Below are positions 1-59,544 of a stretch of DNA of 64,000 bases, one piece after another (within the stretch, counting starts at the first letter, position 1; every line of letters starts with the position of its first letter). The notes beneath the pieces are model-generated. The model saw nothing but the letters and a program-made list of their open reading frames with translations. It had not been told where the DNA came from and did no database searches. A program made the position numbers and the translations under genes. This DNA is from a virus, in IMG/VR virus record IMGVR_UViG_3300020203_000013, positions 1-64,000 of that record; one strand, 5' to 3'.

Positions 1-157
1 ACGATCTATCTACTGGAGAGTATCCTGACGCACCAGTAACTACTCTCTTCTTTCCTGTTAAAGTATTAATTTGATAACAGTTAACTCCTTTTATGTGATG
101 AGTTCTCCAAAATAATACACTAAAAATTGATGCGAATATGTATTTAAAAAATTTCAT
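1..157 (-). CDS. Partial small protein with N-terminal hydrophobic segment
   Basis: An open frame without stops starts with ATG at 157 and runs off the left edge of the window after 52 codons. It begins MKFFKYIFASIFSVLFW, a basic start followed by a hydrophobic stretch, which suggests a signal peptide or membrane anchor. The ATG lies three bases after the RtcB stop codon, and an AAAGGA ribosome-binding site sits in the last RtcB codons, so the two are probably co-translated. I do not recognise the family; only the N-terminus is visible. Confidence 0.6.
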   Translation of the reverse strand, partial: MKFFKYIFASIFSVLFWRTHHIKGVNCYQINTLTGKKRVVTGASGYSPVDRS

Positions 158-160
158 TAT

Positions 161-1642
161 TTATTTTCCTTTAATTACTAACAGTGGTTTTAATTTAGCT
201 ACTTTTTTTGCTAGTCCAGCAATTTCTACAGAATTAATAACCTGATCAAAAGGCTTATAAGAAAAGCTGGACTCATCAATGGGATAATCTGTCCCCTGGA
301 ATATTATATCTGCATCATTCATGTCCTTGTTAACTTGCTCTTGGGAGAAGGATTTAGTGGCTGCGGTACGGGACATGATCCTCCCAGCTCCGTGATTAAT
401 GCTGTATGCAGTCTTGACTGCATTTTCTAATCCCACCATCACATAAGATCCATCTTTGGCATTTCCAGGTAATAGAATTGGGTGTCCAGTTTCATAAAAT
501 GGGGTATTCTTCAGGGAGAAGTGTTTGGCTGGATATGCCCTGGTTGCACCTTTCCTTAATACCCAAAGCTTTCTATTATCTATAATTTCTTGTCTACCTA
601 TGTTATGGCTAATGTGGTATATAAACTCACCCGTAACTCCAGGAATGACTTCCTTAATGGAGTCCAATAGTAGTTTGTTAACATATAGATGATTCATTAT
701 TGCAAAATTTGCGGCGAGTTGCATGTCTAGAATATAATCCTTAGCTTCTTGAGAATCTAAAGGAGCAAATACTAGTTCCTTATCTCCAGCTGGGTATTCT
801 TGATGCCAGGTTTTAAACCTCTCTTGTAGTCTATGAAAGTTATCGGTTGCTAAAGAGTTCCCAAAACCTCTAGAACCAAAATGGGAAAGTATTGCAGTCT
901 TGCCCTCTTTAAGTCCAAAAGCGTCGAATTCAGGCGAGTCACTTACTTTTTGAACTTCGGCCATTTCTACAAAATGATTTCCGCCACCGATTGAACCCAG
1001 CTGCCTTAATTTACTGTGTAAGGTATGTTTAAAGGTATTTTCTGATAACCAGTTATACCTGGACATAAGAAAGTCCCTCCTGTTCCCATGAGAAGAGTCC
1101 TCACACCTGTCTATCCATTCTGCTGGGATTCCTAAAGTCTTTAAGGTGAACTGATTAGCACCAGCTTGAATAGCACCTATAACGTGACTCCTAAACTCTT
1201 GATCTTCTATTAAACTTCTTGAAATAGGATTTTCTCCATCTAATCCTACTCTCTTTAATATCTCAGTAATAATCCGTCTTCTAAGCTTTTTATCTTTTAA
1301 CTCTGATGCTGGAACATCTAATTGTAACAAGGACATTGAGCAGTTAACATCAACCCCTGCTGGGGCTGGATAAATAGTCCCATCAGTAACCATTACACTT
1401 CCTACTGGAACCCCATATCCAACATGTGCATCTGGATTTAAGATTAACTCCTTCACTCCTGGGGCATTACGGGAGTTTAAAGCCTGCTGAATACACTGGT
1501 CTTCTAAACCACTCACAATGAACTCATTACCTATAATTGTGATAGGTTTACCAGCCTTACCGTGATCGAGATAAGAGATTCCAGGCTGAGAAGACGGTAT
1601 AATTTTATTTTTCATAAAAGTGCTATTTAGAGCATTAAACAT
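161..1642 (-). CDS. rtcB: RtcB family RNA-splicing ligase
   Basis: RtcB joins RNA 2',3'-cyclic phosphate or 3'-phosphate ends to 5'-OH ends, using GTP and Mn2+. The 493-residue length is normal for the family. The signature motifs occur in order: DAHVGYGVPVG (71-81), GVDVNC with metal ligands Asp98 and Cys101, GGGNHF with His223, SHFGSRG with His254, SHN with His346, and INHGAGR with His417, the histidine that carries GMP. The C-terminus IAGLAKKVAKLKPLLVIKG is typical. All known metal and guanylylation residues are kept, so activity is likely. It is the last complete gene of the left operon, which also holds a nucleotidyltransferase of the RNA-repair-associated RlaP type and a macrodomain. 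A likely role is repair of tRNA or other RNA cut by host anticodon nucleases or toxins. Neither candidate start (1642 or the ATG at codon 10) has a clear ribosome-binding site. Confidence 0.95.
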   Translation of the reverse strand: MFNALNSTFMKNKIIPSSQPGISYLDHGKAGKPITIIGNEFIVSGLEDQCIQQALNSRNAPGVKELILNPDAHVGYGVPVGSVMVTDGTIYPAPAGVDVNCSMSLLQLDVPASELKDKKLRRRIITEILKRVGLDGENPISRSLIEDQEFRSHVIGAIQAGANQFTLKTLGIPAEWIDRCEDSSHGNRRDFLMSRYNWLSENTFKHTLHSKLRQLGSIGGGNHFVEMAEVQKVSDSPEFDAFGLKEGKTAILSHFGSRGFGNSLATDNFHRLQERFKTWHQEYPAGDKELVFAPLDSQEAKDYILDMQLAANFAIMNHLYVNKLLLDSIKEVIPGVTGEFIYHISHNIGRQEIIDNRKLWVLRKGATRAYPAKHFSLKNTPFYETGHPILLPGNAKDGSYVMVGLENAVKTAYSINHGAGRIMSRTAATKSFSQEQVNKDMNDADIIFQGTDYPIDESSFSYKPFDQVINSVEIAGLAKKVAKLKPLLVIKGK

Positions 1643-1979: not shown

Positions 1980-2395
1980 AGGTTCTTCTTAATAGTACCT
2001 ATTTGCTCTTTAAGATCTTTTACTAGGTTATGCACCTTAAATGCTTTATTTGAAGCCGTGTCCCTCTCAGATTGTTTACCTGATACTCCCCATTGCCTGT
2101 CTCTAAGTCTGTCGCCTTCCCCTTTTAGATAAGAAGACACACTAGCCCTAATAGCTTGAGATAAAGGTAATTTACCTAGCAAGGGATCTATAACCGTTCT
2201 TAAGGTTTCTATGGAATCTTTCTGTTGAGCTAGTAGATCCTTATCCCTCTTCATACTTACTATTACTTTTTCATAAGCTATGTTAGTTTCTCTGCTTTTT
2301 TTATGGGCCTTCTTTAAGGAGTCCTTAGCGGCTAACAACTCCTGTCTCTTAACTGCCAGCTCCTCATGTAATTTTTTTCTGGTTAAGGTGCTCAT
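1973..2395 (-). CDS. Hypothetical coiled-coil protein, 140 aa
   Basis: The first 75 residues are rich in Lys, Glu, Leu and Ala with heptad-like spacing, so a long coiled coil is likely. The C-terminal half is basic and polar. The start overlaps the preceding RlaP-like gene through ATGA, a coupling arrangement. No enzymatic motif is visible. Its position between RlaP-like and RtcB genes makes it a candidate partner or scaffold, but that is inference from position only. Confidence 0.65.
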   Translation of the reverse strand: MSTLTRKKLHEELAVKRQELLAAKDSLKKAHKKSRETNIAYEKVIVSMKRDKDLLAQQKDSIETLRTVIDPLLGKLPLSQAIRASVSSYLKGEGDRLRDRQWGVSGKQSERDTASNKAFKVHNLVKDLKEQIGTIKKNLW

Positions 2396-3294
2396 AGGAC
2401 TTTATCTATTATCTTTCTAACTTCTAGTAGAGCTTGTTTGTTTTTATCACCGCTAATATCCGTATTTAGTATATCAGATAGATCTCCAAAGTGCATTGCC
2501 AAACATTTCAATAATAGATTCTTTATTTCTTCTTCTCTAATCTCATAAGGAACTACTGTTGAATCTAGGTAGATTTGTTCTAACTGTTTCTCTTTAATAT
2601 TAAACCAATTTTTAATATCTTCGACTGTCCAATTTCCTGCTCTAATGTCTTTATACATCTCTTTATCCCTTTGAAGGTCTAAATTCCCTTCAGTGAGGAT
2701 CTGTTCAGCTTGGCATAGTAGTCTAACTGTATGATACGCAAATTTTGTGTCTAACCCTTTGGCCTTTATATCTTCTTTTCTTTTTGAGGATGTGGATTTC
2801 TTACCACTACTTAGGTTCGCCATCTGACTAAATGCGAACCCCTTACAGGTATGCCAGCACTTCTTGCTAAGAAATAGTTTTCTATTCTCCCTAATAATAG
2901 TACCTATAGAGGTTATATGAGTAATGCAGTTAGCTGGAACAAATAAGGCATCTAATATGTTGGGGTTTGCATTGGCGGCCAATCTGAAGAACTTGACTAT
3001 ATTGAATACGTTTATATCGTACTCTTTTTTATCTATCTGAATATTGTGCTTTTGATAAGAGTTAAAGGTTTTAAAGTCCTCATCAAAGCCATACATTACT
3101 CCACTGGTGTGAGGGAAAACTATAGTCTTATTTGGAATGCAAATTGCCTGTACGTCATGGTCGGCCTTATCTGGATCATTACATCCGTAAGCGGTAGATC
3201 CAGTAATGCACTCATAGTGAATATTATCCTCTATGAAGCTGGGTTGATCTATTAGGTGATCGTGCTTAATTAAACGGTTGACGATTCCTGACAT
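2392..3294 (-). CDS. RlaP-like DNA polymerase beta-superfamily nucleotidyltransferase
   Basis: The N-terminus carries the nucleotidyltransferase signature: GSTAYG (32-37) followed by ADHD (44-47), with Asp45 and Asp47 as likely metal ligands. The following pattern, including KEYDINVFNIVKFFRLAANANPN in two adjacent helices and a LFVPAN strand-turn, matches the YcgL/RlaP group (PF10127) as I remember it. That family is described as associated with RNA repair, and here rtcB lies two small genes downstream. The C-terminal 100 residues are helical and charged. An AAGGAG site six bases before the ATG supports the start; the gene overlaps its upstream neighbour by 25 bases. The exact substrate (RNA or nucleotide) is unknown. 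Confidence 0.8.
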   Translation of the reverse strand: MSGIVNRLIKHDHLIDQPSFIEDNIHYECITGSTAYGCNDPDKADHDVQAICIPNKTIVFPHTSGVMYGFDEDFKTFNSYQKHNIQIDKKEYDINVFNIVKFFRLAANANPNILDALFVPANCITHITSIGTIIRENRKLFLSKKCWHTCKGFAFSQMANLSSGKKSTSSKRKEDIKAKGLDTKFAYHTVRLLCQAEQILTEGNLDLQRDKEMYKDIRAGNWTVEDIKNWFNIKEKQLEQIYLDSTVVPYEIREEEIKNLLLKCLAMHFGDLSDILNTDISGDKNKQALLEVRKIIDKVL

Positions 3295-3830
3295 TCTAAC
3301 TCCTTTTGTAGAACTTCTTTAAACTGAACCCAAATAGATTCATAAAAATTATTCAAGTCTCTATTAACGTTTGTATAGGTCTCAGGATAATCTCCGTTAT
3401 ATATGTAATCGAAGTTGGATAGATACATTACTTCTCTACAAAATGATTCAGTATTATTAAAACCCTCATCCACTAGGTTAGTAAATTCGTCCCAGAACTC
3501 TCTAGTCTTTTCTTTATTACCTCGTCCATCTCTTCTAAGTTTTAAAAGGTTCTCGTATATTCCTTTAACAGTTTTATCAAAATCAAATTCTCTTTCCAAG
3601 CCTTGACCAAGTTTACCTAAGAAGTAACTCTTATCTAGTGATAGAAGAAACTGTTTAAAGGTATCCGCTCCTATACTAGTCCAGATGTAGCCATAAGCTC
3701 CGTAGGAGGAATTAATTATAAGGCTTCCTCCACCTTCCCAGGGTTCCAGAACTATTCTTGCCCACTCACCCCTTATTTTTAAAGAGTATTGAGGAACATG
3801 CGAAAGCTTTGCTTCTAGTTTAGTATTCAT
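3270..3830 (-). CDS. Hypothetical protein, 186 aa
   Basis: The ATG at 3830 is preferred over the one at 3842, because GGGAGGAG lies immediately upstream of it and the stop codon of the preceding gene overlaps it as TAATG. The N-terminal half is beta-rich and aromatic, with SLIINSSYGAYGY around residues 40-52, and the middle is helical (LLSLDKSYFLGKLG). I associate this pattern with an uncharacterised family seen in several phages, but cannot give a function. It could be a small regulator or inhibitor. Confidence 0.65.
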   Translation of the reverse strand: MNTKLEAKLSHVPQYSLKIRGEWARIVLEPWEGGGSLIINSSYGAYGYIWTSIGADTFKQFLLSLDKSYFLGKLGQGLEREFDFDKTVKGIYENLLKLRRDGRGNKEKTREFWDEFTNLVDEGFNNTESFCREVMYLSNFDYIYNGDYPETYTNVNRDLNNFYESIWVQFKEVLQKELECQESSTV

Positions 3831-4057
3831 TACTCCTCCCACCCTATCTGCTTACTTAACCAAGGTTCCCACCCGCCCATGTCTTTGTGGAAGGTATCAA
3901 ATATAGTTTGCATTACAACAGATTGCTGTTCCCTTTCCTTTTCAAAATTAAGGTCGCTATATTTCAAGTCCGTTCCAGCACTAGGAAGGAATCTTAACCA
4001 CTTACCTAGCTGGACTTTATCTGCCTTTTTAACTTCTTCTAATGTTGGATATTTCAT
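3830..4057 (-). CDS. Hypothetical protein, 75 aa
   Basis: A small protein with the pattern LGKWLRFLP in the N-terminal half and GGWEPWLSKQIGW at the C-terminus. I recall similar short proteins in other phage genomes, always unassigned. Its ATG lies at the proximal edge of a tandem duplication of the leader (4055-4127). Its stop overlaps the next start as TAATG, so the two genes are translationally coupled. Confidence 0.65.
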   Translation of the reverse strand: MKYPTLEEVKKADKVQLGKWLRFLPSAGTDLKYSDLNFEKEREQQSVVMQTIFDTFHKDMGGWEPWLSKQIGWEE

Positions 4058-4127
4058 ATTAAGTATCTCATTCGGGTTAATTTGTAAACTTCATATTAAG
4101 TATATCGGTCAGGTTAGTTGTAAACTT
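4055..4127. repeat. Tandem duplication of a 36-37 base leader
   Basis: Two head-to-tail imperfect copies lie at 4055-4091 and 4092-4127. In gene direction each has AAGTTTACAA near its start and ends with ATACTTAATATG. The proximal copy supplies the start codon of the 75-residue gene; the distal copy has an ATG in the same context but no long frame. It may be a duplicated translation-initiation region, a decoy start or an operator pair. Confidence 0.6.
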
Positions 4128-4137
4128 TAGATTAAAA

Positions 4138-5085
4138 TTACCAATCTACACCAAAAGATAAAAATCCAAACCCTCTTACAGGATCTTCTTGTTCTTTATA
4201 ATCTCTAGTTCTCATGTTATAGATAAATCTAAGTTCATAGTTGTTATATTGAGCCCCAAATCCGCTTTCCAGGCCTCCTATAAAGGGCTCCTTATCTACT
4301 GTGTGGGGAGATTCTGTAAAGATTCCGCCATCATAGTAAATGTTTCTAAGTCTCGCGGATACATAGGGAGTAGAGAATACAAATAGACTTAGTCTATCTC
4401 TTAATAGATTATTTAAAGTAGGTAGATTATAGCCCGCCCTGGCCCCATACGCAAGGGTTCCATCTGTTTGAATGTTGCCCAGTCTTGCCAGCTCAGTGCC
4501 TTGTAAAGCGAAGCCTAGAGACCCTCTGTTAAGTCTGAGATCCTCCCAGGTCTGTTCGTGATCTATATTAACTATAGGTTCCGTGGCTATCTGATTATCC
4601 CACCCATTAGGGCGCTCGTTGAGTCTTCCTATACTACTTAAAGCTCCGTGAACTCCTATTTGGGTTTGTGCTGCCAAGGATGGTCCTCCAGACGAGCCCA
4701 CTCTGATTGTGGTCGAGGTCTTACTCGTTGTAGTCATTATTAACTTCTTCAAGTTTAAAGTTAAGGTTCCAGCATAAGGATTTTCATTTTTTATAATTTC
4801 CTCGTCTTTAATGTTATCGGGAGTGTACATATCCTGTCTTAGGCCAATCAAGTACCTACTGCTTGTTTGGTTGGGATCTAAGTCAGTTGGGACTGGTATT
4901 AATTCAAATACCTTCTGCATTGCTGCTGGAAATTTTTCTGGAGAACCTGAGTAGTTTAATCCTGCACCGTTGGTAAAGTTACCATCGGTACCAGTAAATA
5001 CATCATTCTGAAGGTTAAAAGATACATTAGAGCACCCCTGAAGGAAGAAGCTAGTCAGAGCTATCGTTATTCTTATCCTTTTCAC
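4138..5085 (-). CDS. LpxR-like lipid A deacylase, predicted outer-membrane lipoprotein
   Basis: Members of the LpxR family (DUF2219) are outer-membrane beta-barrels that remove the 3'-acyloxyacyl group from lipid A. This 315-residue protein starts with a basic, hydrophobic segment ending in LQGC (15-18), a plausible lipobox. Family features follow: QNDVFTGTDGNFTNG (26-40) with the Asn27-Asp28 pair, RQDMYTPDNI near 83-92, NPYAGTLTL near 102-110, QIGVH with His146, and NGWDNQIATEP (160-170). By my alignment these match the catalytic Asn, Asp and His of LpxR. The C-terminus alternates polar and aromatic residues and ends in W, as barrels often do. The start is GTG and overlaps the preceding gene by 35 bases. 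A phage copy could change the host surface during infection, for superinfection exclusion, immune evasion or membrane weakening. Confidence 0.85.
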   Translation of the reverse strand: MKRIRITIALTSFFLQGCSNVSFNLQNDVFTGTDGNFTNGAGLNYSGSPEKFPAAMQKVFELIPVPTDLDPNQTSSRYLIGLRQDMYTPDNIKDEEIIKNENPYAGTLTLNLKKLIMTTTSKTSTTIRVGSSGGPSLAAQTQIGVHGALSSIGRLNERPNGWDNQIATEPIVNIDHEQTWEDLRLNRGSLGFALQGTELARLGNIQTDGTLAYGARAGYNLPTLNNLLRDRLSLFVFSTPYVSARLRNIYYDGGIFTESPHTVDKEPFIGGLESGFGAQYNNYELRFIYNMRTRDYKEQEDPVRGFGFLSFGVDW

Positions 5086-5323
5086 TTCTTTCTTGACTCT
5101 TTTTGGTTTTATCTTTTAAGGTGGTTTTTATATTAACGGTTAAATTATCTTCAAATGAAACTTTATCAAACTTTTTATTATAGAAGTTAGAGTAGTCTTT
5201 CCAAGATATAGATTCTAGAAAATCCTTTACTATCTGTTCTTTATCTACTACCTCAGGGTTATAAAAAAGAGCATACTCTAATTTTCCATCTATGTAAAAC
5301 TTTCTATGCTTACCTGTAATCAT
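5051..5323 (-). CDS. Hypothetical protein, 90 aa, charged C-terminus
   Basis: The first 60 residues look like a small mixed alpha/beta domain with many aromatic residues (LEYALFYNPEVV; WKDYSNFYNKKFD). The last 25 residues are almost entirely Lys, Glu, Asp and Ser and are probably disordered. The start follows the macrodomain stop as TAATATG, and its end overlaps the LpxR-like gene. No family recognised. Confidence 0.6.
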   Translation of the reverse strand: MITGKHRKFYIDGKLEYALFYNPEVVDKEQIVKDFLESISWKDYSNFYNKKFDKVSFEDNLTVNIKTTLKDKTKKSQERSEKDKNNDSSD

Positions 5324-5324
5324 A

Positions 5325-5783
5325 TTACTTGGGCTCTACTAAATAGATGGTAAGATCTTTATTAGTTATTTTACTTAATCCTAGTATCATTTCGTCTTTA
5401 ACGTCTTCCCAGCTCAGTCCCCCTAGACCACAACCTAAGGCTGGAATAGCTATACTTTTTACAGAGTGACCATGATTTAGAAAAGGAACTAAATTTTTAA
5501 TACCCTGTTTTATCCAGATTAGTTTGGATGGATTTCTCCAATGATCCTTGGTCGCTAGGTGGTATATTATTTTTCCTGACTCTCTAGTCTCTAAAACAGT
5601 CCCTGGTTGCATGTATTTAAAATCACATTTTTCTTTATATGACTTATAAGAGTTAGGGAACTTTTTCTTAAACTCTAGAGCTAGTCCTTTACCCATAACT
5701 CCTACACAATTAACTGGGTTGACTAAAGCATCAGCATCTAATAAAAATATATTACTTTTTGTAGTCGTAATTATAAAGCCCAT
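5325..5783 (-). CDS. Stand-alone macrodomain of DarG/TARG1 type
   Basis: A single 152-residue macrodomain. The ADP-ribose-binding loop is NPVNCVGVMGKGLA (22-35); the second loop is PALGCGLGGLSW (114-125). ATKDHWR (77-83) contains Lys79, which aligns with the catalytic lysine of DarG and human TARG1 as I remember them. Those enzymes remove ADP-ribose from thymidine in DNA or from glutamate. This subtype fits the sequence better than poly-ADP-ribose readers or MacroD enzymes. DarT toxins ADP-ribosylate phage DNA as a defence, so a phage macrodomain without the DarT partner is a natural antidote. An alternative is Appr-1''-phosphate processing linked to RNA repair. The ribosome-binding site AAGGGG supports the start. 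Confidence 0.88.
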   Translation of the reverse strand: MGFIITTTKSNIFLLDADALVNPVNCVGVMGKGLALEFKKKFPNSYKSYKEKCDFKYMQPGTVLETRESGKIIYHLATKDHWRNPSKLIWIKQGIKNLVPFLNHGHSVKSIAIPALGCGLGGLSWEDVKDEMILGLSKITNKDLTIYLVEPK

Positions 5784-5803
5784 GTTTTAAAGTACCCCTT
5801 AAT

Positions 5804-6142
5804 TTATGGACACACCTGATGGGACCCATCTACCATAGCTTGAGCCTCCATGCTTGCTAAGACTCTATTTAACTTTTTTGCACTAACTGATCCCGCTGGA
5901 ACTATCCTGTTTAGCATAGAGAACTTTTCTGGAAAAATACGTTTGCCCGCCTCGTAGGATACTGCATCATCTAGGGTGAATTTATACTTAGTATAATCTC
6001 CTCTAGAATGATCCTTTACTGTTTTTATATTGACCCAAAACTTATCACTGGTCCAAGGTTGCCACCCTTTAGCTTTAATAAGCTCTTCTTTAGTAGATTT
6101 AGACTGCTTGAGTATTAAGTTTAATAACTGATCTGTATACAT
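5804..6142 (-). CDS. Hypothetical protein, 112 aa
   Basis: A small soluble basic protein. The middle holds WQPWTSDKFWVNIKTV, and the C-terminal half is helical (SAKKLNRVLASMEAQAM). The ATG sits one base after the TAG of the preceding gene, so the two are probably coupled. No domain recognised and no signal peptide seen. Confidence 0.6.
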   Translation of the reverse strand: MYTDQLLNLILKQSKSTKEELIKAKGWQPWTSDKFWVNIKTVKDHSRGDYTKYKFTLDDAVSYEAGKRIFPEKFSMLNRIVPAGSVSAKKLNRVLASMEAQAMVDGSHQVCP

Positions 6143-6143
6143 A

Positions 6144-6347
6144 CTAGTGAAAACAAAATATTAAGATTCCAATTATAACGGGTAATCCTATAGATATTGC
6201 AAAAACAATAAATCCATTTCTGTAGAACAGACGTGCATGTTCCTGGCAGTACAGCCAAGATTGCATATTCTCGGGCTGAGTTTCTGGGACTAGTTGAGTT
6301 ACTTTTTTGGTCCCTACTAGATTGCATCCTCTCTTTTCACAGGTCAT
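6144..6347 (-). CDS. Small tail-anchored protein with CX4C...CX2H cluster
   Basis: A 67-residue protein with Cys3, Cys8, Cys34 and His37, spaced like a small zinc site, followed by a hydrophobic helix at about residues 45-65. This gives a tail-anchored topology with a cytoplasmic metal-binding head. The start overlaps the preceding gene through ATGA. A competing 68-residue frame at 6121-6327 shows no such pattern and is treated as a shadow. Function unknown. Confidence 0.6.
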   Translation of the reverse strand: MTCEKRGCNLVGTKKVTQLVPETQPENMQSWLYCQEHARLFYRNGFIVFAISIGLPVIIGILIFCFH

Positions 6348-7626: not shown

Positions 7627-8181
7627 TTATTTTAAATCCTTAGTAGATTCCATTAGCTGTTTAACATTTGCGGAGCAGAATCCATGTTGCCCTCTTTTAA
7701 TAAACTCTATAATTACTCCAGTAAACTTATTTGGTTTAGTGAATACCTGGTCTAATTCATCTTCTGGGCAGGTTAAGATGTCTTTAGTTGTAAATTCAGC
7801 CCACCCTTTAGTTTGCCATTCAACCATCTTAGCTCGTACATCTTCTACCTGGAAGGCACAATGGTGAAAGCCTCCTATTCCTCCTCTAGCCTGAACCCAG
7901 AGGTCTACGACTGACCCTGGTTCCCCTTCTGAGATAAAAATTTCAGGGGCCATATGATATTCATTTCCAGTTGGGAAACCATCTAGTACTTGCGGTAAGG
8001 CCCACTCAAAGGTTAAAGAGTTTACCTTTTCTGGAGGCTCCATAGCTGTACAGACGGCTTTAGTACCATCATCAAATACAACTTCAAACTCTTGTTGAAT
8101 TTTGTATCCAAAGGCTTCCATATAAAATTGAACTGCTTCTTGTCTATTAGGAACCCTAAGAGCTATATGGTCTAAACGCAT
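7627..8181 (-). CDS. VOC family protein resembling 4-hydroxyphenylpyruvate dioxygenase C-terminal half
   Basis: A vicinal-oxygen-chelate protein of 184 residues with two paired beta-alpha-beta modules. The putative metal ligands are His5 (DHIAL), His106 or His107 (GFHHCAF) and Glu159 (GVIIEF), the His-His-Glu set of the family. The C-terminus GQHGFCSANVKQLMES resembles the end of 4-hydroxyphenylpyruvate dioxygenases, where a helix closes the active site. It is half the length of those enzymes, so the substrate is probably different. Its start overlaps the preceding gene as TAATG. A host-derived metabolic or resistance gene is likely; such genes are unusual in phages. Confidence 0.75.
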   Translation of the reverse strand: MRLDHIALRVPNRQEAVQFYMEAFGYKIQQEFEVVFDDGTKAVCTAMEPPEKVNSLTFEWALPQVLDGFPTGNEYHMAPEIFISEGEPGSVVDLWVQARGGIGGFHHCAFQVEDVRAKMVEWQTKGWAEFTTKDILTCPEDELDQVFTKPNKFTGVIIEFIKRGQHGFCSANVKQLMESTKDLK

Positions 8182-8444
8182 TAATGAACCTTTTTCTTCT
8201 TTTCATCTGATAAGACATCGGGAAAAGATTCCCTAAGTTTATCTTCCAGTTCTGGAAATATATCTTTTAAATAATCAAATGTGTCACTCTCTATTAAATT
8301 AGACAGCTCTCTTAACTTTGTTAGAATAGGTTTGGGCATTTCAGATGGTAGTTCTTTAGAACTTTTAAATAGAAAACTTTCTAGGTATATTCTAACAAAC
8401 TCAATAGTCTCTAAAATCTCTATTTCTTTTTCAGGTAAAGACAT
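8181..8444 (-). CDS. Hypothetical protein, 87 aa
   Basis: A small acidic helical protein (KEIEILETIEFVRIYLESFLF at the N-terminus in two short helices, then KLRELSNLIESDTF) ending in a basic tail. It lies two bases after the GroES gene stop, so it is co-transcribed with GroES. No motif recognised. Confidence 0.6.
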   Translation of the reverse strand: MSLPEKEIEILETIEFVRIYLESFLFKSSKELPSEMPKPILTKLRELSNLIESDTFDYLKDIFPELEDKLRESFPDVLSDEKKKKVH

Positions 8445-8446
8445 GT

Positions 8447-8737
8447 TTATTCCTCTATGACTGCTAGTACATCCTCTTCGTGCATAATTAAAACCTTTTG
8501 AGTTCCATCATTAACTTCCGCGCCTGAGAATTTTGCAAACAGAATCTTGTCTCCTACTGACACCTTAACTGGTGCAATTTCTCCAGATTGTAATAACCTG
8601 CCCTCTCCAATAGCTAATACTAATCCTTTTTGTGGTTTTTCTTGAGCGTCTTTTACTAAAATGATTCCACCAGAAGACTTCTCGTCTGATTCATCTCTTT
8701 TAACTACAATTCTACCGTAAAGTGGTCTAAAACCCAT
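8447..8737 (-). CDS. groES: GroES-type co-chaperonin
   Basis: The 96-residue length and order of motifs match GroES: N-terminal strand RPLYGRIVVKR (4-14), a mobile loop around residues 17-34 containing the hydrophobic GGIIL that docks on GroEL, a GKGLVLAIGEG-like strand here KGLVLAIGEG (37-46), KVSVGDKILFAKFSG (58-72), and the C-terminal EEDVLAVIE (87-95). Phages use such proteins (T4 gp31 is the model) to let host GroEL fold their large capsid protein. No GroEL partner is seen in this window. An AGGAGA ribosome-binding site precedes the ATG. Confidence 0.95.
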   Translation of the reverse strand: MGFRPLYGRIVVKRDESDEKSSGGIILVKDAQEKPQKGLVLAIGEGRLLQSGEIAPVKVSVGDKILFAKFSGAEVNDGTQKVLIMHEEDVLAVIEE

Positions 8738-8819
8738 ATAAAATATCTCCTAAAAAATGACTATACCAAATTAAATTAAAGATGTCTAATCTGAAATAAT
8801 AACTTAAGTAGTCAATTAT

Positions 8820-9107
8820 TTAATTGGAGGGGCTAACTTGAGAATACGGCATGAGTAGCATTTGACCGCTATTGCCGGATATTAGTAGGGCTGGATTTTC
8901 TGGAGAGCCTAGTTGAGTAACAGTGACTCCACCTAGCTTTTTAGTAACGTTACGTTTATAAATGGCTTTGATAATTCCTTTAGAGCTAGTTGTCGGGCCC
9001 CAAGCTACATTCTGACCTACCTTAAACCCAGCGGCAATAATCTTAATGGTTGTCTGGGCTAATTCAATCTTATTATCTAATAGTTCTAGCAGGTTATCAA
9101 TATCCAT
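8820..9107 (-). CDS. Hypothetical SH3-like protein, 95 aa
   Basis: After an N-terminal helix (about 1-25) the protein has a beta-rich part with FKVGQNVAWG, KGIIKAIYKR and a central glycine-rich turn, a pattern typical of small SH3-like barrels. The ATG at 9107 lies only about ten bases from a promoter-like motif, and no ribosome-binding site is visible, so translation may be leaderless or start differently. Function unknown. Confidence 0.5.
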   Translation of the reverse strand: MDIDNLLELLDNKIELAQTTIKIIAAGFKVGQNVAWGPTTSSKGIIKAIYKRNVTKKLGGVTVTQLGSPENPALLISGNSGQMLLMPYSQVSPSN

Positions 9108-9164: not shown

Positions 9165-9452
9165 ATGAAATGGAACGTTGATACACTGTTAAAGGGTTAT
9201 TTTCACAAGGCTACTGTTGAGTGGGGCCAACCTGCTCAAATGTTGGTTGCAGTAGAGGAGATGGCTGAACTAACTAAAGAAATTGTAAAGAATTTAAATC
9301 GGGGCAAAGAGAATGAGGAAGAGATAATAGAAGAACTTTCTGATGTTATTATAATGTGTTTACAGTTAACTGAAATATATGGTGGACAGAAGGTTGAAGA
9401 TATGATAAATAAAAAATTAGAAAGATTTAAAGCTAGGATAGATAATATATGA
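9165..9452 (+). CDS. MazG-like nucleotide pyrophosphohydrolase
   Basis: A 95-residue single-domain MazG-type protein. The metal-binding helices carry EEMAEL (31-36) and EELSDV (56-61), the ExxE and ExxD motifs of the all-alpha NTP pyrophosphatase superfamily. These enzymes hydrolyse (d)NTPs to monophosphates, and phage copies are thought to adjust nucleotide or alarmone pools. It is the first gene of a three-gene plus-strand island, unlike its neighbours on both sides, and overlaps the next gene by ATGA. Confidence 0.85.
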   Translation: MKWNVDTLLKGYFHKATVEWGQPAQMLVAVEEMAELTKEIVKNLNRGKENEEEIIEELSDVIIMCLQLTEIYGGQKVEDMINKKLERFKARIDNI

Positions 9453-9835
9453 AAAACTTAACACTACTGACTCTAATTTTGCTGCTTAATTTTGCTACCG
9501 CTAATGCCGACTGTATTTCTGGGGCCAAAAATAAAACTGAGTTTAAATTAAGGTTTAATACGGGAGATATTCTCCTAACTGGAGGAATAGGTGATGATAT
9601 CTATGTTACTACCTATTCGCTAATATCACCAAACTCATCTCTCTCCGTGGTGGAAGATTCTTTCTGTAGTTTTGATAATAACGCTATACGAGTGGATGGA
9701 AGACTTATCTCGATAACCTCTGTATTTTATTTTAATCTTTCCGCTAGCAATGCTCAAGGGAACTACATACGTTTACAGAGTAGTTATAACACCCTAGTCG
9801 AATCTTATAATCTAAGTCTAAAAAGAATTAAATAG
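9449..9835 (+). CDS. Secreted hypothetical protein, 128 aa
   Basis: The N-terminus MKNLTLLTLILLLNFATANA is a clear signal peptide with a cut site after ANA. The mature part of about 108 residues is beta-rich with two cysteines (CISG and FCSF), which could form a disulfide in the periplasm. The start overlaps the MazG stop through ATGA. Function unknown; a periplasmic or surface role during infection is inferred. Confidence 0.65.
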   Translation: MKNLTLLTLILLLNFATANADCISGAKNKTEFKLRFNTGDILLTGGIGDDIYVTTYSLISPNSSLSVVEDSFCSFDNNAIRVDGRLISITSVFYFNLSASNAQGNYIRLQSSYNTLVESYNLSLKRIK

Positions 9836-9878
9836 GTCATAAAATTTTAATATCAAATGGAAATGGTAGAAAATCTAT

Positions 9879-10088
9879 ATGAAGAGTCTACTAAGACGTG
9901 CCTTTCATATCTCATTAATAAGTCTTGCAGGTACTTCTATAAATATAATCCTAATTAGTTTTTATACTAAGTTAGTTCCTGACTTACATTTACTTTTAGA
10001 TATACCTACCTTAATAGTTATAGTGTTAATATCTATAGAGATATCCGTTAAGTCAATAGATGTCATCTTTACTAAGAAGGATTTTTAA
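9879..10088 (+). CDS. Small membrane protein, 69 aa, two predicted helices
   Basis: Two hydrophobic segments are visible at about residues 10-30 (ISLISLAGTSINIILISFY) and 37-55 (LLLDIPTLIVIVLISIEIS), joined by a short polar loop, with basic ends. Size and topology would allow a holin or a superinfection-exclusion protein, but no sequence feature decides between these. It is the last gene of the plus-strand island. Confidence 0.5.
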   Translation: MKSLLRRAFHISLISLAGTSINIILISFYTKLVPDLHLLLDIPTLIVIVLISIEISVKSIDVIFTKKDF

Positions 10089-50513: not shown

Positions 50514-51593
50514 TTATAGTGAGCGGTCGATAATACCCATAACGATCATTCGTGTATCAAGTACTGCCATTCCAATTTCTTCCCAACCATAGAAACCTTG
50601 TTTCTGTGATCTGTGAAGAGCTGGATCTTCAAACAATTCTAAGTCAGCTCTAATAGGCATAACAAGTGAGTCATTAGCTGTTAGATCAAAACCATAGATT
50701 TGTGTTTCTCCTGCTGTAGTTACAAACCCGTCTGAATTTACTACGTTAGCATTACTAGGTGTATAGTCGTTGAACGATCCACCTGTTCCTACTTTGAATA
50801 GACCGAACTGAGATGAGTTCGAGTTGATGTTGTACTTTCCAGCTGCACCTAGATTGTGCAATGGATGAAGTTTAACACCATAGATTTCAGAAGTTCCACC
50901 ACTTACATAGATTTCTCTACGTGTGACGTTATCTACTTGGGATTCTCCCCACTCTCTTACATCAGCTAGATCTTCTGGTGATAAATAAACATCAGTCAGA
51001 GTTCTTCGTTGACGTTCCATCTTAACAATCATTTGATTAAGGAGTTCTTTACTGAAAAATCCAGCAGAAGGACCACCATTAATTTCTACGATTGGAGCTG
51101 GACGTGGGCCCAAAAGGGCTTTACCCGCAAATGCAGAAGTAGCCGCTGGAGCCAAAAGTCTCCAAGCTGATTCTTCTTCATAGTCAATGATCGCACGAGC
51201 AGCGTTTCTCATAGCTCTCTGTGCAATATCGATTCTTCCGTCTCTTGCATACTGCAAAGACCAGTCAAATGCTGTTCCGATTTTAAATGTCGGTACAAAC
51301 ACTTCTTCACCTGGAGCTTCGATGTAGTTCTGAGGAACTTGACCTAGCTTAGGTAGAATAAATACTGGAGCTTCAAAGTCATCTGCAATTGGATAAGAAG
51401 CTTGAGCACCAGGCTCAAGGTTCTGAGTTGCAAACAACTGTCTTGCAACAGATTGATCACGTACTTTCTGTAGGATAGGTACAGTGATTGCTTGTGCAAC
51501 CGCTTTTTGTACTTCGGGTGACTGAACGGCACCTTCGGAAGCAGTTGCTTTTAGGAGTTCTTTTAACTCTTCTTTAATAACTATTTCATTCAT
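50514..51593 (-). CDS. Major capsid protein (HK97 fold)
   Basis: The frame extends to 51692, but the ATG at 51593 is chosen because GGAGGCG precedes it and the extra 33 residues overlap another gene. The 359-residue product has a helical N-terminus rich in Glu/Ala, then IADDFEAPVFILPKLG and VPTFKIGTAFDWSL, and a long spine helix region (RIDIAQRAMRNAARAIIDYEEESAW), as in HK97-type shells. It is followed by the strongest terminator in the window, as expected for a highly expressed protein. GroES encoded at 8447 may help to fold it. Confidence 0.85.
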   Translation of the reverse strand: MNEIVIKEELKELLKATASEGAVQSPEVQKAVAQAITVPILQKVRDQSVARQLFATQNLEPGAQASYPIADDFEAPVFILPKLGQVPQNYIEAPGEEVFVPTFKIGTAFDWSLQYARDGRIDIAQRAMRNAARAIIDYEEESAWRLLAPAATSAFAGKALLGPRPAPIVEINGGPSAGFFSKELLNQMIVKMERQRRTLTDVYLSPEDLADVREWGESQVDNVTRREIYVSGGTSEIYGVKLHPLHNLGAAGKYNINSNSSQFGLFKVGTGGSFNDYTPSNANVVNSDGFVTTAGETQIYGFDLTANDSLVMPIRADLELFEDPALHRSQKQGFYGWEEIGMAVLDTRMIVMGIIDRSL

Positions 51594-51613
51594 ATTAATA
51601 TATCGCCTCCGTA

Positions 51614-52099
51614 TTATAGTGCCAACTTGATAACTAGATTCTCGCCTGCTGCTGCTTGTGCCGCACTCAAAGAATTTTGAGCAATGGCGCAAACTTTAGG
51701 TACTCCACCTTCAAGAGCGCCTGAAGCAGATACGTTAGTAAGTCTGCCTTGAGTTGCACTTGCATAAAGTGGGGCACCGGCTGCTAGCGAACCTGATACC
51801 AAATAGTGTGTTGTTTCAAAAATTCCACCGGATTGGAAACATAAAACTGGGTCACCTACGTGAGCGTCAGAGTTTCCGATCTCTCCTGGAAATTGAAAGT
51901 TTTGTGGAAGACCTGCGGCTTGTGCCTTAACTCTCTGAGCAAGTAGAGCATAAGGTGCTCCACCTGAGATGCTAGTAATAGCAGCTAATTTATTTTCTCC
52001 TGAAAGTCTTACGATAGCACCTGCCTCGGCAGTTCCACTGTTCTCGTCATGACGACAGAGAGCATTTTCTTGTACGATGTGTCTTGGGGTTAAAGCCAT
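51614..52099 (-). CDS. Putative capsid decoration protein, 161 aa
   Basis: An Ala/Gly-rich beta protein (GAIVRLSGENKLAAITSISG; VGDPVLCFQSGG) located between scaffold and major capsid genes, where decoration proteins of the lambda gpD or similar type are encoded. One or more beta-tulip-like segments are plausible. It starts six bases after the scaffold gene stop. Confidence 0.6.
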   Translation of the reverse strand: MALTPRHIVQENALCRHDENSGTAEAGAIVRLSGENKLAAITSISGGAPYALLAQRVKAQAAGLPQNFQFPGEIGNSDAHVGDPVLCFQSGGIFETTHYLVSGSLAAGAPLYASATQGRLTNVSASGALEGGVPKVCAIAQNSLSAAQAAAGENLVIKLAL

Positions 52100-55625: not shown

Positions 55626-57743
55626 CTAATCTAAAATCTCATCTAAAGTCGATTTAGAGATATCTACTTCTGTTCCTTCTTCTATTGTACTTTTGTCTGC
55701 TTTTATAGACAATCTTTCTTTTAATTCTGTTAGGGAGACTGGATCTAGAGATCTTAAGATGTCAATTAACTCGTCTACTCCAAGGCTAGCCTTACTAGGC
55801 GCTTTAACTTTAGTGGTGTCCTTCACTACCTTGACTGAATCTATTGGTTTTTGGGCTAGAGGGGGTTGTCCTACCGGCCTTCCAGAGTCTCCCGAAGGAG
55901 ATGTTGCTACTTGATTGTAAGGGCTTCCTGCTCTTAAAACGTCTTCTTGGATGAGAGGAAGTTCTTCTCTTAATCTTTGCAACTCTGTATCATAATCGAA
56001 GTCCATCTCTCTCATGTACGATTGCACCGATATTGCCTTTCTATCTAGCATCTGCATAAAGGAGGCACGAGTAACTGCGTCACTGTCTGTACTAATCACT
56101 GATTCTTTCCATCTTACGACTGGATAAGAGTTAAATCCTGCCAGCTTAGCAAGCTCTCTGTACTGACTGTAAACCCAATCTTCTACTTTAATTCTTGCTG
56201 CTGTTATTTCACTCTTTAAGCTTTTAGTAACTAATACCCCGCCATCTCCAGATAAACCCTTGCCGTCAATTAAGACCCTAGAAAACCCTAGAGAGTTTGT
56301 AATTTCATCATCTACTGGCTCGTACTTAGCTTTACCTAGTATTTCTCCAACATCTCCAGCTGAAGTTATCTTTTCAATCTTAAGAGTGTCGTTCCAAACT
56401 ACTGTAAACGCTTTTTGAGGGGTGTTAAAAGCTTCAGCTAAATCTGCTAATACCTTTTCATCCTGAATAGGTCTCTCCGCGTCTCCGACAGTTACTTTTA
56501 AAATATAATTGGTAATGCCATCAATAGTGGCATAATCTGCTTTCTTAAGCTCATCCCTATAATCAAAAGCGTCAAACGCTCTTGAAGCTCTGGGCTTGGC
56601 ATATACATCAGAGTCTCTCTTCCTCAAAAAGATTACAGAAACTTCTTCGTCTTTAAAGGTGTACTCTTGGTTGCTCTGAGCTGCTGTTTTCATTCCAGAC
56701 GGTATATTAGTTAAAGAATCTTTTACTGACTTAGATACTTTACTAGGATCTGATTTAATCTTCTCTAATATCTTTTTAAGAGGTAGGAGGCCTTTTTTAG
56801 TTATGGTAAGGCTTGTTCCACCAAAAAATCCTGAGGAATCTAACCTAATCTCTTCAGGAGGCAGTAGCGTATAGGCTATAGGATAGCCACCTGCTGCGGC
56901 AGTTTCAGAGGTAAGAGACTTATATTTGGTAGAAAATTTACTATAGTCTAGGTCTTTCCCTAATTCGGCCCTAATTCTCTCTTTAATTAGATGGGCTAAT
57001 TGAGCTTTTTTACCCGCCTTAGTATTTGAGGGGGCTCTTCCTGGTATGGATGATATTCCATCTGGATGGGCCTCATATGGGCCTTTAGCGTTTAAGATAT
57101 AACAAACGGAGTATTTAAATAGATCATTAAAAATTTTACTAACTACTCCAGTAAATCCAGTATCACGAGTCCAAGCATCATAAAACTCTTTAACTTCCTG
57201 ATCATTGATTTCATTATAAAACCCTGTAGCTGAGAAGTTAGATAGAACATCTATTTGAGTTCCATATATTCCTGTCCTGTAATACTCTTCATTAGATCTA
57301 GTATATAATTTTAAGGCTGCAAGTTCATCTGAAGGCTTTCCTCTTAAATCTAAATAAGAACTATCTAGTGCATCTCTATACTGAGTGTTTAGTTTGGCTG
57401 TTTCAATTCCTTTAGTACTAGTCTCCACTCTAGCTTTTTCTCTAAGAGCTTCTAGTTTTTCATTTAAATTAAAAAGTTCTTTTTCAGCCTGTAGCTTACC
57501 CATCAAGGTATTGGAGTTATTAATAGGTTTAATTCTGGAGCGGAAAGTTTCTTTCTGATCTGTGGGAAAGAAGAGCGCGTCGATAGTTTCTTCACTCGTT
57601 TGAACGGTTAGCTCATACTTTCCATCTTTCGTCTTAGTAGCCTCAAGGAATTTGGCGTTACCTTTGGTAATCCGACTGTTTAGCTGATCTACTAGCTCTG
57701 GGGCTGGTCCTGCGGGCTTATTAATATCTTTTCTTCTTGCCAT
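55626..57743 (-). CDS. Portal protein, 705 aa
   Basis: It follows the large terminase, overlapping it by 23 bases, and precedes the protease and scaffold genes, the standard portal position. Features include a long helical N-terminus, SNEEYYRTGIYGTQIDVLSN and FNDLFKYSVCYILN, a PPEEIRLDSSG strand, and a C-terminal disordered acidic tail. The size fits large-phage portals. The ring-forming core is recognised by pattern, not by an exact motif. Confidence 0.8.
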   Translation of the reverse strand: MARRKDINKPAGPAPELVDQLNSRITKGNAKFLEATKTKDGKYELTVQTSEETIDALFFPTDQKETFRSRIKPINNSNTLMGKLQAEKELFNLNEKLEALREKARVETSTKGIETAKLNTQYRDALDSSYLDLRGKPSDELAALKLYTRSNEEYYRTGIYGTQIDVLSNFSATGFYNEINDQEVKEFYDAWTRDTGFTGVVSKIFNDLFKYSVCYILNAKGPYEAHPDGISSIPGRAPSNTKAGKKAQLAHLIKERIRAELGKDLDYSKFSTKYKSLTSETAAAGGYPIAYTLLPPEEIRLDSSGFFGGTSLTITKKGLLPLKKILEKIKSDPSKVSKSVKDSLTNIPSGMKTAAQSNQEYTFKDEEVSVIFLRKRDSDVYAKPRASRAFDAFDYRDELKKADYATIDGITNYILKVTVGDAERPIQDEKVLADLAEAFNTPQKAFTVVWNDTLKIEKITSAGDVGEILGKAKYEPVDDEITNSLGFSRVLIDGKGLSGDGGVLVTKSLKSEITAARIKVEDWVYSQYRELAKLAGFNSYPVVRWKESVISTDSDAVTRASFMQMLDRKAISVQSYMREMDFDYDTELQRLREELPLIQEDVLRAGSPYNQVATSPSGDSGRPVGQPPLAQKPIDSVKVVKDTTKVKAPSKASLGVDELIDILRSLDPVSLTELKERLSIKADKSTIEEGTEVDISKSTLDEILD

Positions 57744-59544
57744 TGCTTAGAATTAGTCCTCCCCCTCTTATAGTAATAACATTTTTACTAGAATCCCCAT
57801 TCATTGTATCAACACCTGCCGATCTAGTCAAGGTCGGGTCTATTGAGACTACTTGATTCCTTTGTGTTGGGCTAATCTCTTGTATTACGCCTCTCTCTAC
57901 TGCGGGAGTTACCTCCCTGTGTTTCCATTGAAGGTCATAAACACACTTACAGGCTAGAATGAAAGAGGTATATAAATCCTTCTTTTTAGGTTTTCCTGAG
58001 TTAGTTGACCCTTTAGGTAGATCATAGTGCAGTTTACCTGTTGTTGTTTGAGTAACTACTATAGAAGATATTTGGTTTATAAGCTCTTGAACTAGATCGA
58101 CTTCTTTACTCTGTCCTTTAAGATTAGCTTTTCTATGGCCATCAATTGGATTAGATGCAGATGGTATCTTTATGGCTCTCTGCTCTAGTAAGGTTTTAGT
58201 GTTGTTATTAGCATCTTCAATAAATACTGGGTTAAAGTTACATAGGGTTAATATCCTAGATCCTCTTAAGTTAGGAGCTGAGTCTGAGGTTATTACTGTT
58301 TCAGTTACTGAATATCCAACTGTAGAGGGATCTGCTAGATGATCTCTGATAGTTTGGCCTCCGCCGAATTCATCCATATAAATTGCTACTGGATTAAATC
58401 TCCTTATTAAATCGAAGATGTGTTTCGATTGGTCTTGAAAACGGGTCTGCTCAAGTTCTGATATAAAAACTAGTTTACTTGGATACCCTAACTCAACTAC
58501 TGTAACAGCTGTGGAGTCTCTTTCTCTTGCTACGTCAATTCCAAAAACGTATTTCTTACCTTTATCTGTATCGGGATCTCTACCCATCTTAGGGATTACT
58601 TTATCGTCTCTACAGGACTCCAATAAGCTCATCGGAAAAGCTCCATCAGAGTCTGATATCCATTCCGCCATCCACTCTGTCAAGAACATGTGGCGAGGTG
58701 CATTTATCTGAGCGTCTGTAACAGTATCTACGTCATAAAACCCATCTGGTAGCTCTAAGTAAGGAGTGAATCTTAGGTTATAGTGCTTAGACCCCTTCTT
58801 TATTTGGTCATAGAAGTTTAAAATTTCTTGCCACCAATAGTTGAATTGATAATATCCAGATGTAATTCCAATATATCCGTTATCACTTAGGATAAGATCT
58901 TCTGGTATTATTCCACCATATTGTTCTTTTAATTTCTCAAGTTGTTTAACCTTTTGCATTGGATTAACAGCTGTACTCATCATAGGCTGAATTGAGGACC
59001 TGAATATTATTTCAGGCATATGTGGGATTTCATCTAATATGACTTTTCTAAAACGCTCCCCTCTTATTTTTCCTCCATCAGATCCTACTGGCAAGGCTTT
59101 AATTTCACTGGGGGCTAACCCTCTACCTGTAGATTTAAAAATACATAAACATTGATCATTCTGTTGAGTCGGATCTTTGTCTACTGCCTCTTGAAGCAGA
59201 GGACTCTCTGCATGTAATCTAGTAAATTCTTTAAAGATAAGTTTAGATTGACGAAATGCTGGAGCAAAGATTCCTATCTTAGTTCCTGGATATAAAGTAG
59301 CCTGTAAAGAGGCATAGACTGCGGCCAAAAAAGACTTACCCATACCTCTGGAAGCGGTATTTAATGAGAATTTAGAATACCACCATTCCGTAAGAACTAT
59401 CTCTTGAATAGGTGCTAAAGTTAATGGTTCACCATCTCTTTTAAGTAAATGATTAGCAGCAATAACTGGATTCTTTCTCCAGTAATCTACTATACTACTA
59501 GAGTATTTTTCATCTAGTTGTTTATTTATTTTTATTAGAACCAA
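57721..59544 (-). CDS. Terminase large subunit, 607 aa
   Basis: The DNA-packaging motor ATPase and nuclease. Walker A is SRGMGKS (65-71), Walker B is KVILDEIPH (167-175) with Asp171 and Glu172, and the coupling motif is GITSGYY (226-232). The nuclease domain starts with FGIDVARERDST (334-345), Asp337 being a metal ligand, and AIYMDEFGGG supplies the next acidic residue. It lies upstream of the portal gene and after a small-terminase candidate. Confidence 0.95.
   Translation of the reverse strand: MVLIKINKQLDEKYSSSIVDYWRKNPVIAANHLLKRDGEPLTLAPIQEIVLTEWWYSKFSLNTASRGMGKSFLAAVYASLQATLYPGTKIGIFAPAFRQSKLIFKEFTRLHAESPLLQEAVDKDPTQQNDQCLCIFKSTGRGLAPSEIKALPVGSDGGKIRGERFRKVILDEIPHMPEIIFRSSIQPMMSTAVNPMQKVKQLEKLKEQYGGIIPEDLILSDNGYIGITSGYYQFNYWWQEILNFYDQIKKGSKHYNLRFTPYLELPDGFYDVDTVTDAQINAPRHMFLTEWMAEWISDSDGAFPMSLLESCRDDKVIPKMGRDPDTDKGKKYVFGIDVARERDSTAVTVVELGYPSKLVFISELEQTRFQDQSKHIFDLIRRFNPVAIYMDEFGGGQTIRDHLADPSTVGYSVTETVITSDSAPNLRGSRILTLCNFNPVFIEDANNNTKTLLEQRAIKIPSASNPIDGHRKANLKGQSKEVDLVQELINQISSIVVTQTTTGKLHYDLPKGSTNSGKPKKKDLYTSFILACKCVYDLQWKHREVTPAVERGVIQEISPTQRNQVVSIDPTLTRSAGVDTMNGDSSKNVITIRGGGLILSNGKKKRY

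Follow-up and report, generated by a model that had tools for sequence, protein, structure and literature searches.

An LpxR homologue encoded by a phage: conserved catalytic residues and a putative lipobox

The stretch of DNA analysed here (the window) covers positions 1 to 64,000 of the virus record IMGVR_UViG_3300020203_000013, which has 102,268 bases in all. Genes for a terminase, a head protein and a tape-measure protein (Table 1) mark the record as that of a tailed phage, so the phage origin claimed by an earlier reading of the letters (the sequence-only reading) holds. We did not find an integrase (PF00589) in the 102 kb record, which is linear and may be incomplete, nor any tRNA gene, and the genes examined have no lambdoid features. 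Beyond the window, at about 77103-87456 of the record (L002:17103-19243 and L003:300-7456), there are genes of the LPS or O-antigen sugar type, encoding a DegT aminotransferase, a WavE-like protein, a PglD-type acetyltransferase, a C-methyltransferase, a PfkB kinase and a protein with a C-terminal RpiB-type isomerase domain. Other features of the window are a perfect 24-base tandem repeat (23550-23685; 5.7 copies) within a large ORF (21703-23778), a gene for a large homing or HNH endonuclease-like protein (39271-41010; phrog_3339, E 2e-115) inside the structural gene region, and a small plus-strand island among minus-strand genes (9165-10088), which encodes a MazG-like protein, a protein with a signal sequence and a two-helix membrane ORF (holin-like by eye, without a Pfam match).

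Table 1. Features of the LpxR locus and of the phage genes in the window (positions are those of the window)
Feature	Position	Strand	Evidence or remark
RtcB RNA ligase	161..1642	-	PF01139, E 3e-102
RlaP, RNA-repair nucleotidyltransferase family	2392..3294	-	PF10127, E 3e-19
Phage protein, downstream neighbour	3270..3842	-	phrog_13202; between LpxR and contig end
LpxR-family protein	4138..5085	-	315 aa, GTG start; PF09982, E 5e-57; AlphaFold2 12-strand barrel; 3FID Z 27.9
His146, equivalent of catalytic base H122	4648..4650	-	aligned to 3FID H122
Thr38, taken as T34 (Ca2+ ligand)	4972..4974	-	motif; homologue column T/S
Asn27-Asp28, equivalent of N9-D10 of Salmonella LpxR (Ca2+ ligands)	5002..5007	-	structural offset 19 to 1; invariant
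Cys18 (lipobox L-Q-G-C), putative lipidation site at +1; Ser at +2	5032..5034	-	sequence, pattern counts
Putative signal peptide, codons 1-17 (MKRIRITIALTSFFLQG)	5035..5085	-	sequence; model helix 2-15
Upstream ORF, 90 aa	5051..5323	-	no Pfam or PHROG match
Macro-domain protein	5325..5783	-	PF01661, E 1e-15
GroES-like co-chaperonin	8447..8737	-	PF00166, E 4e-28
Tape-measure / minor tail protein, 2145 aa	30630..37067	-	PF10145, E 2.5e-24
Major head protein	50514..51692	-	phrog_2522, E 4e-18
Portal protein, weak match	55626..57743	-	phrog_2739, E 3e-4
Terminase large subunit	57721..59544	-	phrog_2, E 3e-23

The sequence-only reading had proposed an LpxR-type lipid A deacylase. An open reading frame lies exactly where it was proposed, on the minus strand (no strand had been given), and its product matches the Pfam family PF09982 far beyond chance (193.6 bits for a cut-off of 26), with residues 19-314 aligned to positions 21-322 of the 323 in the profile; the family is matched only once in the whole 102,268-base record. 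The upstream ORF extends 35 bases into the gene, which suggests that the two are co-transcribed; promoter-like and terminator-like sites around the gene are not commoner than in shuffled sequences. Between the stop codon and the next start there is a 37-base unit in 2.3 copies (4053-4135), two copies of which end in ACTTAATATGA, and an exact copy of that end is absent elsewhere in the window. The protein has no match in PHROG or NCBIfam, its single sequence has none in the PDB by phmmer, and used alone as a query it found no relative in the viral and genome collections; relatives were reached only via tblastn against plasmids and via profiles built with plasmid homologues (A1 and A2). Scans of IMG/VR with the profiles gave six further phage copies of LpxR (in the records L015, L016, L017, L098, L099 and L100).

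The structure was predicted with AlphaFold2 from alignment A2, which holds 53 sequences (the window protein and 52 relatives from the fetched loci). The model has 12 strands (pLDDT 91.3, pTM 0.87) and an N-terminal helix at residues 2-15 that is compatible with a signal peptide. The top PDB match in Foldseek is Salmonella LpxR (3FID; E 1e-16, TM 0.73/0.78), which leads the next entry by eleven orders of magnitude (1e-16 versus 1e-5). VIA-align also places 3FID first (Z 27.9, rmsd 2.3, 261 aligned residues), with BrkA second (Z 18.2). Thus the 12-strand barrel, on which the sequence-only reading had staked its proposal, is recovered by prediction and by both structure comparisons; among the matches to the BFVD viral models none is LpxR-like, the best being a DUF481 barrel with a TM of 0.32. 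The alignment pairs residues 19..315 of the model with 1..296 of 3FID, and since its first pair is residue 19 with residue 1, the mature chain would start where Salmonella LpxR starts.

The residues that had been named as the LpxR pattern (Asn27, Asp28 and His146) are at the places claimed for them, and all three are invariant in alignment A2. Among the 151 distinct homologues that have both columns, the Asn-Asp pair and the His are present in every one (151/151). Thr38, which we pair with T34 of Salmonella LpxR by motif, falls in a column that holds Thr in 144/151 and Ser in 7/151 of the homologues. His146 lies inside a helix of the model (138-150), just as its counterpart lies inside a helix of LpxR. 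In the Salmonella enzyme N9, D10 and T34 bind Ca2+, and H122, in the L3 helix (110-126), is the proposed base, according to a passage in PMC6260217. The window gene therefore encodes an LpxR homologue with an intact catalytic set, carried by a phage.

The N-terminus is different from that of other members of the family. The string LQGC, seen by the sequence-only reading as a possible lipobox, is found at residues 15-18, so that Cys18 is 9 residues ahead of Asn27 and immediately before the equivalent of residue 1 of Salmonella LpxR. With a basic n-region, a hydrophobic stretch and MKRIRITIALTSFFLQG-C18, the protein fits a lipobox rule modelled on the PROSITE pattern PS51257. Across the full 102,268 bases of the record, 193 ORFs reach 60 aa or more and 3 of them pass the rule; by eye, the LpxR gene product alone among these three begins like a signal peptide. 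The lipobox recurs in the same position in 3/7 of the IMG/VR phage copies (window, L098 and L099), where it precedes the catalytic Asn by 9 residues in the window, 10 in L098 and 9 in L099. The +2 residue is Ser19 in the window, Thr in L098 and Ser in L099; none is Asp, and a +2 residue other than Asp means Lol sorting to the outer membrane. Gln at lipobox position -2 is uncommon.

Of the 146 distinct non-phage homologues among the matches listed, none (0/146) has a lipobox 20 residues or less from the catalytic Asn. This set was made up of the best 80 of 234 confirmed genome-contig relatives, four clade searches (at most 30 matches listed for each, two of the searches covering largely the same genomes) and 4 plasmids, with sequence duplicates removed. 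By alignment column the lipobox is found in 2/5 phage sequences and 0/146 others among the matches listed (Fisher p 0.0009, ignoring relatedness); L099 (split in two), L100 and L202 were left out of this count, as the column is missing in them. Three non-phage sequences with an apparent lipobox (L047, L159 and L161; 3/144 in a string-anchored count) were rejected: the ND or DD on which the count was anchored is not the catalytic pair.

It may be argued that the lipobox arose by chance, and that the protein is an LpxR of the plain kind, exported with a standard signal for signal peptidase I and behaving just like the LpxR of Salmonella or of phage 434. No lipobox is found at this place in the phage copies L015, L016, L017 and L100 either, and its lack in all 146 non-phage homologues means that the LpxR family does not need one; cleavage by the type I enzyme after Gly17 or Ser19 is conceivable. 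Chance, however, does not readily account for the same feature 9-10 residues before the catalytic Asn in three phage proteins, each of which has Ser or Thr at +2, and we regard a plain LpxR as unlikely, if to be taken seriously. The window LpxR is probably a lipoprotein, judging by its N-terminal sequence. The claim that a lipobox on a beta-barrel enzyme is atypical stands for the LpxR family (among the matches listed); for barrels at large, lipidation has precedents in CusC and OprM.

The closest relative found for the window LpxR is that of L098 (38% identical). The two form a clade with SH-aLRT support of 99 in a quick tree (63 rows) and 100/99 in a careful tree (54 rows; ten near copies removed and the phage 434 row added). 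The careful tree adds L099 to this pair with support of 90/73, but L099 falls outside it when the signal region and five long rows are removed, so a clade of three lipobox proteins is not firm; gain of the lipobox takes one change on the careful tree and two with the reduced alignment. Several of the phage rows are long branches, which makes their deeper placement unsure: as to a single origin of all phage LpxR, 6 changes were counted on the tree, and one clade of all eight phage rows was not rejected (AU p 0.16). The phages themselves share little, as only 4 of the 193 ORFs match between the window phage and the L098 phage (LpxR is the best, with E 4e-64), and the portal and head proteins of the latter are assigned to phrog_213 and phrog_138, which we take to be the T4-type proteins. 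Given the identity and clade support of the two LpxR proteins, the enzyme has been kept across otherwise different phages. LpxR is absent from five records whose terminases are related to that of the window phage (47-100% identity; possibly fragments), and therefore the gene is probably accessory.

Two of the relatives deserve separate mention. The LpxR gene of L100 (8001-8882) contains 4 TAG codons, of which three coincide with conserved Gln positions, and its frame stays open only when TAG codes for Gln, as in a phage of code 15. In L016, a 476 kb phage record, an RtcB-like ORF (5059-6327) is close to the LpxR gene (8001-8981), and in the window RtcB forms, together with RlaP, an RNA-repair pair in a phage. 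We rejected a functional link between RtcB and LpxR, as RtcB is found in only 1/6 of the other LpxR phage records; RtcB is common in large phages, and its closeness to LpxR in both records is probably a coincidence.

On balance we favour the view that, while infecting its host, the phage produces an active lipid A 3'-O-deacylase of the LpxR type from this gene, with a mechanism of five steps. The N-terminal signal, as far as its sequence tells, would lead to Sec export. The protein would then probably be processed as a lipoprotein and acylated at Cys18, after which Lol would carry it to the outer membrane, as Ser at +2 suggests. The mature chain is predicted to fold into the 12-strand barrel, its C-terminal aromatic residue suits insertion by BAM, and the topology would put the lipid in the inner leaflet beside strand 1. 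Near the outer leaflet, Asn27, Asp28 and Thr38 would hold Ca2+, His146 would activate water and lipid A would lose its 3'-linked acyloxyacyl chain, as the conserved residues and the mechanism proposed for LpxR suggest. In the last step, which is the weakest, the altered LPS would benefit the phage, most likely by a change in receptor or surface such that fewer further phages bind; the LPS-sugar genes about 77-87 kb along the record fit surface remodelling. The sequence-only reading had offered a block to superinfection, altered receptor use and a weakened envelope as conceivable benefits. The protein is most likely an outer-membrane barrel with a lipid anchor, which strips 3'-acyl chains from the lipid A of the host.

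A more far-reaching idea, possible though doubtful, is that in one phage lineage the LpxR barrel became an outer-membrane enzyme with a lipid anchor: Lol would bring the N-terminal strand to the inner leaflet and hold it there, allowing fast BAM insertion and LPS editing within one infection, and this form would have spread among unrelated phages and be absent from bacterial LpxR.

The benefit to the phage might instead come at lysis: late in infection, deacylated LPS would make the outer membrane weaker, either in addition to spanins or in their place. The genes from terminase to RtcB are mostly on the same strand, which makes late expression of LpxR plausible, and the L098 record has a small lipobox ORF beside a small membrane ORF nearby, which look spanin-like by eye. 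But no lysis gene is recognised near the window LpxR gene, and both Salmonella and E. coli tolerate the loss of a single acyloxyacyl unit from their LPS; a role as lysis helper is therefore unlikely in our opinion.

Another alternative is that the barrel was kept and the substrate changed, to another glycolipid or a phospholipid of the host. The Asp-Arg pair of 3FID (D76-R77) is replaced by Glu101-Asn102 in the window protein, and the L098 protein has Val at the place of R77; the pair is typical of the family (D in 60/65 and R in 61/65 rows) and is not known to be catalytic. The Kdo-binding K67/R68 of Salmonella LpxR correspond to I92/K93, so that only the place of R68 is still basic (Lys). 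The column of K67 holds Lys in 8/65 rows and Ile in 43/65: most of the family also has Ile there, and the basic pair that holds Kdo is a Salmonella feature rather than one of the family in general. Glu-Asn in place of Asp-Arg, and the loss of one of the two Kdo-binding basic residues, count against full activity. The loops are divergent as well, the branch of the window and L098 proteins is long (1.1-1.3 changes per column), and the window protein scores 193 bits with PF09982 versus about 300-400 for most full-length bacterial members. On the other side, all Ca ligands and the catalytic His are retained, and we consider a changed substrate improbable; activity of the window LpxR on lipid A is what its residues probably indicate.

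Finally, it is very improbable that LpxR is a host gene in a mis-assembled or chimeric contig: it lies about 4 kb from one end of the linear record and its RtcB, RlaP, macro-domain and GroES neighbours occur in bacteria too, but a PHROG-matching protein separates it from the contig end, it is on the same strand as its neighbours with overlapping genes, its nearest relative found is in the T4-like phage L098, and a single-sequence scan of species genomes gave no relative.

The sequence-only reading held a phage-encoded LpxR to be uncommon, and as a novelty this does not survive: the lambdoid coliphage 434 (OL657226 and OL657227) is already annotated with LpxR, and prophages have LpxR beside Q. 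A 2026 preprint (PMC13192938) treats LpxR and phage Q as conserved neighbours of sRNA genes in the lambdoid prophages of E. coli; for >98% of the PasD1 and PasD2 hits, both genes lie no farther than 10 kb away. In INPHARED, a query with Salmonella LpxR matches 2 of 50,697 records (both phage 434), and queries with the single window sequence and with L098 match none; our literature search for DUF2219 together with phage found no paper. Since carriage by phages is known from phage 434 and E. coli prophages, what looks novel is the N-terminal variant. A search for LpxR with a lipoprotein signal peptide found no paper describing a lipid-anchored form, and the lipobox N-terminus looks new, as judged by sequence. 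If our reading is true, non-lambdoid phages edit host lipid A via their own outer-membrane enzyme, a monomeric outer-membrane barrel enzyme uses the lipoprotein pathway, and a lipid-anchored form, unseen in the 146 bacterial or plasmid homologues among the matches listed, is common to two or more phages that are otherwise nearly unrelated. It would also offer a testable case in which a phage controls how lipid A is acylated, whether to ward off superinfection or for receptor use. The precedent of phage 434 limits the surprise, but it makes an isolated phage and laboratory E. coli available for testing the idea.

Several known systems can be compared with the window protein. PagP and PagL differ from LpxR in their folds and acyl positions. 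They resemble it as outer-membrane enzymes that modify lipid A acyl chains (as a passage in PMC6260217 states). CusC and OprM are outer-membrane barrels with a lipidated N-terminal Cys in the inner leaflet (as described in a passage of PMC3017539); they are, however, trimeric efflux channels rather than enzymes, and are unrelated in sequence. LpxR of Salmonella Typhimurium (3FID) has the 12-strand barrel with the same start and end, the Ca ligands and the catalytic His, whereas the window protein is only 17% identical to it over the structural alignment, has a lipobox before residue 1 and a replaced D-R pair, and is encoded by a phage. The LpxR of phage 434 is likewise borne by a tailed phage; it is 75.7% identical to the compared part of Salmonella LpxR, its N-terminus has no lipobox by pattern, unlike that of the window protein, and its gene is on the opposite strand beside Q, like genes of the lysogenic-conversion type, in contrast to the window phage with its lack of lambdoid features. 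The nearest case is L098 (IMGVR_UViG_3300043411_001118): its LpxR gene has a GTG start and a lipobox before the Asn-Asp pair, and its protein is the tree sister of the window LpxR, but it belongs to a T4-like phage that is nearly unrelated to the window phage.
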